Origin: a virus
IMG/VR virus record: IMGVR_UViG_3300009164_000434
Location: 1-20,791 of that record
Length of the DNA: 20,791 bases
Direction: 5' to 3' (one strand)
Below, piece by piece: positions 4,531 through 18,612 of the stretch. The position numbers and the translations under genes were made by a program. The first letter of the stretch is position 1. Each line of letters begins with the position of its first letter. Under the pieces are notes generated by a model, which was not told the DNA's origin, ran no database searches, and saw nothing but the letters and a program-made list of their open reading frames with translations.

Positions 4531-6327
4531 ATGTCGGAGATAGTAATAGATTACAGTAGAGATAGTTTGTTTGATGAGTTGGGTTTGAAAAGACTAAAAG
4601 AAAGTTACATGAAAGATGACGAAGTTTCACCACAAGAGAGATTTGCTTATGTATCAAAAATGTTCGCAACTGATTCAGATCATGGTCAACGTCTTTATGA
4701 TTATTCCAGTAAGCATTGGTTGTCATATTCTACTCCTATTCTTTCTTTTGGGAGGAGTAGGCGTGGGTTGCCTATTTCTTGTTTTCTACCTTATCTGCAT
4801 GATAGTGCAGAAGGTCTGGTCGATTGCTTATCGGAGGTTAACTGGTTATCAATGTTAGGTGGTGGTGTAGGTATTGGTCTAGGTATTCGTAGTTCAGATG
4901 ATAAATCAGTAGGCATCATGCCACATCTAAAAACATATGATGCAAGTTGTTTAGCATATCGTCAAGGCAGAACACGTAGAGGTAGTTATGCTGCATACTT
5001 AGATATATCACATCCAGATATTCTATTGTTTCTTGATATGAGAAAACCTACTGGTGATCAAAATCTTCGTGCATTGAATCTACATCATGGTGTTAATGTA
5101 ACAGATGACTTCATGCGATTAGTTGAACGGTCAATGTATGATCTACAGGCAGATGATTCATGGGAACTAAAAGATCCTAATTCAGGTGTTGTTCGTGAAG
5201 TTGTATCTGCAAGAGAGTTATGGCAAAAACTATTAGAGAATAGAATGTTGACTGGTGAACCATATGTTCATTACATTGATACAAGTAATGCTAAGATGCC
5301 AGAGTTTCAAAAGAAATTAGGATTAAAGATTCAACAAAGCAATTTGTGTAGTGAGATTATTCTACCGACTAATAAAGATAGAACAGCAGTATGTTGTTTA
5401 TCTTCACTTAACTTGGAGTATTATGATGATTGGAAAGATGACAAATTATTTCTTAGAGACACCGCAGAGATGCTCGATAATGTTCTTCAGTATTTCATTG
5501 ATAATGCTCCTGACAGCATATCAAGGGCACGATATTCTGCTATGCGTGAACGGTCTATTGGTGTTGGGGCTCTCGGTTTTCATGCGTATCTACAAAAGAA
5601 CCTAATTGCATTTGAAAGTGCATCTGCTAAATCTGCTAACATTAGAATGTTCAAACATATAAGGAGTAAACTAGATGAAGCCAATAAAGAGTTGGGGCAA
5701 CTTAGAGGAGAAGCTCCAGATGCTGTTGGCAGTGGTTTGCGTTTCTCCCATCTTATGGCTATTGCACCAAATGCTTCCAGTTCTATCATTATGGGAAACA
5801 CTAGTCCTTCTATTGAGCCTTATCGTGCTAATGCTTATCGCCAAGATACATTATCTGGATCGTCATTAGCAAAGAACAAATGGTTAGATAGATTCATTCA
5901 AACTAAATTAGCAAATGATTCTGGTTTAGTTAACCAAAATGATTATAATGATATCTGGTCTAGTATTATTGCTAATGATGGTTCAGTTCAACACCTAGAT
6001 ATTTTAGATGCATATCAAAAAGATGTATTCAAAACATCAATGGAAATAGATCAACGATGGGTAATTGAACATGCTGCAGATAGACAATTGTATATTGACC
6101 AATCACAATCATTAAATCTATTCTTTAGACCAGATGCAAATATCAAATACATACATGCTTGTCATTTCTTAGCATGGAAACGTGGACTGAAAACACTATA
6201 CTATTGCCGTAGTGAAAAGATTGGTAAGGCAGATAAGATATCAAAACGAATTGAGCGAAACATAATTAAAGAATTAGACATGACTGCCATTGCTCAGGGT
6301 AACGAGTGTCTAGCTTGCGAAGGATAA
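4531..6327 (+). CDS. nrdA: class Ia ribonucleotide reductase, large subunit, without ATP-cone
   Basis: I chose the ATG at 4531 because GGAG (4521-4524) is 6 nt upstream; an in-frame ATG at 4519 overlaps that SD. The 598-residue product keeps the catalytic set: C84 (PISCFLP) and C288 (TAVCC) as the redox pair, N271/C273/E275 in SNLCSEI, the tyrosine pair in KTLYYCRS that relays the radical, and the C-terminal C593-x2-C596 swivel cysteines. C84 aligns with E. coli C225, so about 140 N-terminal residues, including the allosteric ATP cone, are absent. It reduces NDPs to dNDPs with NrdB. Confidence 0.96.
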   Translation: MSEIVIDYSRDSLFDELGLKRLKESYMKDDEVSPQERFAYVSKMFATDSDHGQRLYDYSSKHWLSYSTPILSFGRSRRGLPISCFLPYLHDSAEGLVDCLSEVNWLSMLGGGVGIGLGIRSSDDKSVGIMPHLKTYDASCLAYRQGRTRRGSYAAYLDISHPDILLFLDMRKPTGDQNLRALNLHHGVNVTDDFMRLVERSMYDLQADDSWELKDPNSGVVREVVSARELWQKLLENRMLTGEPYVHYIDTSNAKMPEFQKKLGLKIQQSNLCSEIILPTNKDRTAVCCLSSLNLEYYDDWKDDKLFLRDTAEMLDNVLQYFIDNAPDSISRARYSAMRERSIGVGALGFHAYLQKNLIAFESASAKSANIRMFKHIRSKLDEANKELGQLRGEAPDAVGSGLRFSHLMAIAPNASSSIIMGNTSPSIEPYRANAYRQDTLSGSSLAKNKWLDRFIQTKLANDSGLVNQNDYNDIWSSIIANDGSVQHLDILDAYQKDVFKTSMEIDQRWVIEHAADRQLYIDQSQSLNLFFRPDANIKYIHACHFLAWKRGLKTLYYCRSEKIGKADKISKRIERNIIKELDMTAIAQGNECLACEG

Positions 6328-12130: not shown

Positions 12131-12163
12131 TCAAATCAATGACTTACGAACCACAAATAATGC

Positions 12164-12220: not shown

Positions 12221-12427
12221 ATGAGTTTAGAAGATAAAATTTACGAGTTGCAATACTGTGATGCCTATGCAGACTTCATTATGGACCAAGGGTATATGGG
12301 TGAAATTGCGATTTATAACGGTGATTCTCTAACAAAAGCGATGGAGATGGGATACTTGTTTAAGGACTTTCTGTTTTCAATCGGATGTGCAGACTTGGCT
12401 TACATTTATACTAAGGAATTTGCTTAA
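12221..12427 (+). CDS. small acidic protein, unknown function
   Basis: The ATG at 12221 is chosen because AGGA (12211-12214) is 6 nt upstream; the in-frame ATG at 12215 touches the SD. The 68 residues are acidic and aromatic-rich (YCDAYADFIMDQGYMGEI, GYLFKDFLFSIGCADLAY). No motif recognised. It is the first gene of the right-hand small-gene cluster, behind two tandem promoters. Confidence 0.7.
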   Translation: MSLEDKIYELQYCDAYADFIMDQGYMGEIAIYNGDSLTKAMEMGYLFKDFLFSIGCADLAYIYTKEFA

Positions 12428-12960: not shown

Positions 12961-13130
12961 AAATTGAGACTGCAAAGAAAGTATTGGAGAAAGAGGCAGA
13001 GTTCTTTGGTTGGTCTGTATATGATTTAATGATGGATATTAAAGGTATGAAGAATCCTTTAATGATGTATAGTAAGAAAGTGGTAGAGGCATACGAAGTT
13101 TTAAGTTGGAATAGACACGAAAACGCTTGA
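12957..13130 (+). CDS. 57-residue protein with TTG start
   Basis: The TTG at 12957 overlaps the previous stop (TTGA) and has GGAG (12945-12948) 8 nt upstream, a good coupled start. The product begins MKIETAKKVLEKEAEFFGW and continues with a helical, methionine-rich stretch (YDLMMDIKGMKNPLMMYSKK). Its last codons (AAC GCT TGA) are made from the -35 region of the next promoter. The family is unknown. Without the TTG the frame has no ATG with an SD. Confidence 0.6.
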   Translation: MKIETAKKVLEKEAEFFGWSVYDLMMDIKGMKNPLMMYSKKVVEAYEVLSWNRHENA

Positions 13131-13154
13131 CATTTGGTATAGTTGTGTTATAAT
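13127..13154 (+). promoter_or_regulatory. promoter cassette, copy 4 (drives structured RNA)
   Basis: TTGACA (13127-13132), 16 bp, TATAAT (13149-13154), then GTAGTCTGAGTTGA. No gene follows for 220 nt; instead a strongly folded region lies directly downstream. Confidence 0.8.
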
Positions 13155-13161
13155 GTAGTCT

Positions 13162-13296
13162 GAGTTGAGAGTGTTATAAGAGTGAATACTGTTGCCAGTC
13201 CTGTTTCTGACCGGGAAGAGTAAAATCTTTAGAGAAACCATACGGCGTTAGCCCAGGTTGTTAAGAAGAGTCAACGGATAGTGTTCACCCTTATAA
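13162..13296 (+). ncRNA. candidate structured RNA of about 135 nt
   Basis: The region starts about 7 nt after the TATAAT of promoter copy 4. Its ends pair in a 17-bp stem, TTATAAGAGTGAATACT (13174-13190) with AGTGTTCACCCTTATAA (13280-13296), with one A-C mismatch and one G-U pair. Inside are GTTG/CAAC (13191-13194, 13272-13275), a hairpin CCAGTC/GACCGG (13195-13200, 13209-13214; 8-nt loop), and a two-part hairpin AACC/GGTT (13236-13239, 13256-13259) capped by GGC-GTTA-GCC (13244-13253). No reading frame or T-run terminator is seen. It could be a free small RNA or a long leader of the gene at 13376. It matches no family I know. Confidence 0.55.
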
Positions 13297-13316
13297 ATCA
13301 ATGAGTTACAAAACGC

Positions 13317-13344
13317 TTGACATTCGGTACAGTTCTGATATAAT
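13317..13344 (+). promoter_or_regulatory. promoter cassette, copy 5
   Basis: TTGACA (13317-13322), 16 bp, TATAAT (13339-13344), then GTAGTCTGAATAG. The box ATCAATGAGTTAC (13297-13309) lies 7 nt before the -35 and directly abuts the closing stem of the structured RNA. Confidence 0.82.
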
Positions 13345-13375: not shown

Positions 13376-13558
13376 ATGAAAATGCAAGAATACAGATTGG
13401 TATTATATAAAGATTTAAAAAAACGTGGTATCCACAAGATGGAAACCATAGATTTTGCCCCATGCACTTCCGCATATATTAAATCGGAAGTTCAGAAGAA
13501 AACCGAGATGGGATATATCGTCATTAAGTATATACGTGGTTGGGTAATTAATAGTTGA
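13376..13558 (+). CDS. small basic protein, unknown function
   Basis: The ATG at 13376 has AGGAG (13364-13368) 7 nt upstream; a TTG 18 nt earlier has no SD. The 60 residues (starting MKMQEYRLVLYKDLKKRG) are basic with a mixed alpha/beta pattern and end in IVIKYIRGWVINS. No motif recognised. Its stop lies within the next gene's leader. Confidence 0.65.
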   Translation: MKMQEYRLVLYKDLKKRGIHKMETIDFAPCTSAYIKSEVQKKTEMGYIVIKYIRGWVINS

Positions 13559-18424: not shown

Positions 18425-18612
18425 AAGTAATAACCGAGATATTAATTATTATTATACTTTTTGGTTTATTGTTAGTTAGTATTAGTCTGAATATGGAAGA
18501 TAAAAAGGTAATTGATTGTAGAATAGCAGAGATTAGTCCAGATATACCTGTATGGGCAAAAGAAGAATGCCGTAAACTTAATAGAAAAAACCTTTATAAA
18601 TCAACAACTTAG
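18421..18612 (+). CDS. small single-pass membrane protein
   Basis: 63 residues. An N-terminal transmembrane helix (EILIIIILFGLLLVSISL) is followed by a soluble part with DCRIAEISPDIPVWAKEECRK. Two cysteines could form a disulphide. The last codons (AAA TCA ACA ACT TAG) are made from the promoter upstream box of the next cassette. Confidence 0.7.
   Translation: MKVITEILIIIILFGLLLVSISLNMEDKKVIDCRIAEISPDIPVWAKEECRKLNRKNLYKSTT

Follow-up and report, generated by a model that had tools for sequence, protein, structure and literature searches.

The window analysed here, positions 1–20,791 of IMG/VR record IMGVR_UViG_3300009164_000434, represents part of the genome of a T4-like phage, with a PhoH protein of the phrog_170 family and a DNA primase (phrog_47). 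Two perfect sigma70-type promoters, both on the plus strand, were found between a 57-aa ORF that ends at position 13130 and the gene at 13376. The first (positions 13127–13154, TTGACA-16-TATAAT, 12/12 matches to the consensus) is followed by no ORF, and transcription from it is predicted to start at about position 13162; the second (13317–13344, 12/12) independently serves the gene at 13376, the protein product of which was found only in a twin contig. No intrinsic terminator was found between positions 13298 and 13376. The sequence-only reading had described the first promoter as one without a gene, followed by an RNA, and this description is accurate. The window contains at least five near-identical promoter cassettes (at 12155, 12681, 13118, 13308 and 15025), with partial similarity at 18590 and 20090. 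They often consist of an upstream element AAATCAATGA-TTAC, then TTGACA-16-TATAAT and AGTCTGA, and, scattered ahead of small genes, they resemble a mobile or amplified promoter.

The candidate transcript, which we call RNA1, occupies positions 13162–13298 of the plus strand and appears to be a truncated version of a structured non-coding RNA; a covariance model (CM) scores the window copy at 153 bits. Its closing helix P1 (13174–13296) was previously described as 17 bp long with one A-C mismatch and one G-U pair. The helix and the mismatch were recovered in our fold, with different counts: seven pairs, an A·C mismatch (A13181-C13289) and twelve further pairs add up to 19 standard pairs, of which three are G-U. 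The outer part, P1a, pairs 13174–13180 with 13290–13296, as predicted by folding and a three-way comparison, and the inner part, P1b, pairs 13182–13193 with 13277–13288, as predicted by folding and the alignment of variants. As had been proposed, the fold places a few short hairpins within the closing helix. Hairpin P2 (13199–13216, UCCUG-(UUUCUGAC)-CGGGA) is predicted in the window and L089 folds (L089 is a relative described below), and hairpin P4 (13244–13253, GGC-GUUA-GCC) is present in every predicted fold. Two others are tentative and come from the alignment: P3 (13217–13228, AGA-GUAAAA-UCU), which is absent from the minimum free energy (MFE) structure of the window, and P5 (13257–13275, GUUG...CAAC), which competes with an AACC/GGUU pairing of that structure. 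A resemblance of P2 to an anticodon loop (UUCUGA) was dismissed, as its loop has 8 nt and the hairpin is not a tRNA arm.

The window copy folds with an MFE of -36.3 kcal/mol, compared with -27.1 ± 3.5 for shuffled sequences (z = -2.6), and one of 200 shuffles was as stable. A 19-pair closing stem occurred in none of 2000 dinucleotide shuffles of positions 13161–13316, the longest shuffled stem having 17 pairs. However, positions 5850–5992, within the nrdA coding sequence, can form an 18- to 20-pair closing stem with a z-score of -4.4, and the protein encoded there looks like an ordinary NrdA. Since a comparable stem lies inside nrdA, the stem alone is no proof of an RNA gene, and conservation and context carry the case.

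Database searches gave RNA1 no name. Rfam 15 returned no family match, either at the gathering threshold or at E ≤ 10, no known ribozyme family matched at the latter cut-off, and ARAGORN detected no tRNA or tmRNA in the window, in agreement with the earlier impression that this is neither a tRNA nor a known phage RNA. Exact-pattern scans recovered the same five contigs only (the window, L007, L089, L090 and L114) apart from chance matches; L116, L218 and, from genome_contigs, L219 were dismissed as RNA1 carriers on the latter ground. An identical copy was located by blast within the fetched loci in contig 3300009184_000227 (L007), a 95% copy by searching whole records of relatives in contigs 3300009151_000047 (L089) and 3300010158_000028 (L090), where it sits between the same flanking genes as in the window, and a 92% copy by pattern scan in 3300010885_005622 (L114), another T4-like phage. 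No distant relative emerged when 0.87 Mb of boxA loci and 49 whole records were searched with the CM, its minus-strand matches being the mirror of the stem and not new copies, and a comparison of the RNA1 core with 215 other array spacers identified only L114. A blastn search of isolate phages with the region and with the full unit of RNA1 and its neighbour, RNA2, gave no true match.

In these relatives, which are freshwater viruses of bacteria, RNA1 is longer and has company. The homologues (L089:1502–1640 and L114:13797–13935) measure ∼139 nt, lie behind a near-identical promoter and have a closing helix of 27 pairs, with fold z-scores of -6.3 in L089 and -5.3 in L114. They abut a second long-stem RNA (RNA2), which is followed by one or more tRNAs. 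The order in L089 is promoter, TGTTCTTTAAAAATTT, RNA1, RNA2 (closing stem of ∼23 pairs), tRNA-Met(CAU) and the next promoter, and the tRNA is the only Rfam match above cut-off in this operon. In L114, the promoter-boxA-RNA1 unit and the 5' half of RNA2 lie within an array of nine tRNAs. The sequence TGTTCTTTAAAA of the relatives fits GYTCTTTAANA, the boxA consensus of gamma-proteobacterial rRNA and suhB leaders (PMC5725501), and a perfect boxA stands between the promoter and RNA1 in both L089 and L114. The 161-kb relative G002 has a single occurrence of the motif, ahead of RNA1, and the reversed version occurs in none of the 26 records.

L114 belongs to a different lineage. Its UvsX is only 26% identical to that of G002, and 5.25 kb of its core genes gave no DNA match in the close relative, yet the two are 91% identical over the 285 nt that comprise RNA1 and the 5' half of RNA2; some tRNAs are also common to both. 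Such identity despite diverged core genes suggests that the RNA1/RNA2 module has been conserved or exchanged on its own. At L114:13936–14045, the 5' half of RNA2 is fused to a T-arm and an acceptor-like 3' end (ACAGGTTTGATCCCTGTATCCCCCACCA), which suggests recombination between RNA2 and a tRNA.

Compared to its relatives, the window copy is reduced. A three-way comparison showed that the boxA segment, ∼19 nt flanked by a pair of TTGA repeats, is missing here, leaving a TTGA scar at 13165–13168 (+), the site of TGTTCTTTAAAAATTT in the relatives. No boxA beyond chance was found in the window. Downstream of CTTATAA, the window continues straight into the next promoter cassette, beginning with its upstream portion (from 13297). 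Missing from both the window and its twin contig are thus boxA, the outer 8 pairs of the closing helix, RNA2 and the tRNA. The window copy retains the promoter, an intact interior and 19 pairs of the closing helix. We regard it as a shortened derivative that apparently lost boxA between the TTGA repeats. An insertion in the relatives is less likely, given that two phage lineages carry the longer form.

The comparison of RNA1 rests on three sequence variants that differ at 6 to 13 positions. In P1, three one-sided changes stay paired by wobble, one gives a C-A break and none is double-sided. The seven P1a pairs are identical in all three variants, and the changes in P1b include A-U to G-U, G-U to A-U and one U-A to C-A. 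All interior helices that were counted are invariant, so that covariation is no test of P2; the best L114 fold departs from those of the window and L089 at P2, and the P3 loop reads UGAAAG in L114. The covariance search for compensatory changes that had been suggested for the long stem yielded only these three variants in the sequences that were searched: selection on structure, as first proposed from a wobble pair, agrees with the three wobble-preserving changes, and two-sided compensation in the stem was not found. The covariation is consistent with structural selection but not decisive, and the predicted interior fold is unproven, given three variants and no double-sided compensation. Conservation across lineages is better evidence for RNA1 than covariation. 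The proposal that this is a new structured RNA driven by a promoter of its own is supported by these homologues: in related phages as well as in deeply diverged ones, the RNA follows boxA within a tRNA/ncRNA operon. Judged by sequence and setting, we conclude that RNA1 is a real folded small non-coding RNA.

The distribution of the leader was assessed by scanning IMG/VR for a TATAAT box followed by boxA, with the reversed motif as control. The scan returned 101 stretches, versus 15 with the reversed motif. A same-strand tRNA was found within 450 nt of 44 of the 65 distinct promoter-boxA sites, mostly 11–15 nt downstream, compared with 28% of random positions in the same loci and 0 of the 15 control sites. 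Two loci fetched for PhoH and not for boxA (L222 and L223) have the promoter-boxA motif directly before a tRNA-Gln, and in L222 it heads an array of 12 tRNAs. Among array spacers of 90–400 nt, a closing stem of at least 14 pairs was present in 30 of 215, versus 1.0% of shuffles. In 13 array loci, the best 150 of 197 Rfam matches were only to tRNAs. The promoter-boxA-tRNA layout is widespread, extending beyond the carriers of RNA1; no description of phage tRNA arrays led by boxA came up in a literature search, which was not exhaustive.

RNA2 could be characterised further. It is a structured family of phage tRNA arrays that is absent from Rfam, has the core GGTATCGT...GGACG and is located at L089:1641–1802 and L201:11240–11412, and also in L139, L167, L120, L123, L156 and others. 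In an alignment of 13 sequences with four helices, 23 of 36 pairs have changed on both sides, and 93.8% of the cells are paired, versus 73% in shuffles. RNA1 and RNA2 are neighbours that share a long closing helix and the type of operon but differ in the interior.

The complete operon (promoter, boxA, helix-closed RNAs and tRNAs) mirrors the layout of a bacterial rRNA operon in which small RNAs replace the rRNA. With a probability of roughly 0.6, we favour the reading that RNA1 is a small non-coding RNA of such an rrn-like phage operon, excised, stable and protein-binding, and that the window holds a shortened copy. By analogy with the rRNA operon (PMC10250234), host RNA polymerase with Nus factors would transcribe the untranslated operon without Rho termination, and RNase III or a similar enzyme would cut the closing helices. 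RNA1 would then be expected to accumulate as a stable RNA of ∼100–140 nt. It might act by binding to a protein or ribonucleoprotein, for which the machinery of host translation or of RNA decay is the likeliest source; this step is a guess, since it is drawn from the RNA class.

Alternatively, the closing stems could be only processing signals for RNase III on a polycistronic precursor, with the interior of RNA1 an inactive filler. Long closing stems are common between tRNAs in these arrays and abut their neighbours, like the leader-trailer helices of rRNA (PMC10250234). Nevertheless, the RNA1 interior is ∼92% kept between phages that share no other DNA except tRNAs and promoters, and the interior hairpins of RNA2 covary strongly. 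Moreover, most tRNAs in the same arrays are only a few nt apart, which indicates that long-stem inserts are not needed for processing. We therefore consider this explanation unlikely.

It is likewise improbable that the window copy is a decaying remnant, functionless in this phage, whose promoter and stem survive by chance, although the losses relative to the relatives would fit such a fate and the RNA1 region, at ∼95% identity, does not stand out in conservation from most genes around it in close relatives (roughly 91–98%). The promoter of the window copy is perfect and its interior intact, wobble mostly keeps the stem paired where the three variants differ, and the same truncated form is present in a second contig. 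In the favoured reading of a small RNA from an rrn-like operon, the window copy, without boxA and part of the outer helix, may nevertheless be decaying.

The sequence-only reading had also raised two other roles. Regulation of the gene at 13376 by RNA1 as a cis-acting 5' leader is very doubtful: with no terminator found before it, the transcript could run into this gene, but the gene is served by a separate perfect promoter and its product was found only in the twin contig, and what follows RNA1 in L089 and L114 is RNA2 and tRNAs. An antisense role was not upheld either, the 15-nt complementarity between 12310–12324 and 13285–13299 being one of several chance-level repeats. Finally, an intergenic inverted repeat beside a chance promoter match, with no RNA gene at all, is hardly tenable, for despite the comparable stem in nrdA no shuffle reproduced the closing stem, and another phage lineage has homologues on the same strand, preceded by a promoter and boxA.

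The record of stable phage RNAs without an assigned function goes back to T4 RNA C and D, but families for comparison were lacking, and we know of no function for these two. RNA C (rnaC, species 1, 139 nt) and RNA D (rnaD, species 2, 119 nt) are like RNA1 in size and in being carried by a T4-like phage; they adjoin a tRNA gene in the tRNA cluster and are annotated as small stable RNAs. RNA1 lies beside tRNA genes in L089 and L114, with no tRNA in the window itself. RNA1 gave no blastn match to rnaC or rnaD at E ≤ 10, and rnaC has another shape, ending in a T-arm-like hairpin; neither a cassette led by boxA nor a long closing helix was noticed in the T4 stretch that was read. By analogy, RNA1 is most likely an excised, stable, protein-binding RNA of this kind. 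GOLLD and ROOL, whose function is unknown, come from phages or prophages and often lie close to tRNA islands (PMC12286853); both form nanocages, and GOLLD members often exceed 800 nt, whereas RNA1 has ∼139 nt and no Rfam match. Theta ribozymes, minimal HDV-like self-cleaving elements, are non-tRNA RNAs of phage tRNA regions (PMC10879173); RNA1 shares their position beside phage tRNAs but matches no ribozyme family. Bacterial rRNA operon leaders have in common with the RNA1 operon a promoter, boxA GYTCTTTAANA, a long helix closing each RNA and co-transcribed tRNAs (PMC5725501, PMC10250234); the latter differs in being phage-encoded, with RNAs of 140–160 nt and tRNAs, no rRNA and putative antitermination. 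RNA1 thus appears to belong with the phage ncRNAs of tRNA arrays, in no named family.

More tentatively, and at somewhat less than even odds, RNA1 could be one of a large, undescribed set of long-stem ncRNAs in mini-rRNA-operon tRNA arrays of many freshwater phages, which would hijack host rRNA antitermination and processing and so produce large amounts of stable RNAs, with host translation or RNA-targeting defence as the point of action. Since several new RNA families share the leader promoter and boxA, they can be found by a simple pattern and are testable. This raises the question of whether phages borrow the host rRNA antitermination complex for tRNA/ncRNA arrays, and what the partners of the extra RNAs are.

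The arrays contain other recurrent elements. A larger RNA of ∼210–240 nt with a 'GGTTACCAACTCCAGTAGGT' core and a long closing stem (L201:11033–11240; also L191, L119, L199, L167 and L169) looks like a further family. A spacer RNA of ∼215–230 nt ('GTTAGCAAGAGAAAGTCACGCTG...ATGGTT') recurs at L117:8953–9166, L122:2822–3050, L147:7742–7967 and L156:6000–6227. TRNA-like elements with a T-arm (e.g. GGCAGGTTCGATCCCTGT) nested in a longer outer stem were observed at L144:3500–3625 and L147:5932–6050 and in L159; those of L144 and L147 were not called as ordinary tRNAs by ARAGORN, and these elements are possibly variant or decoy tRNAs.
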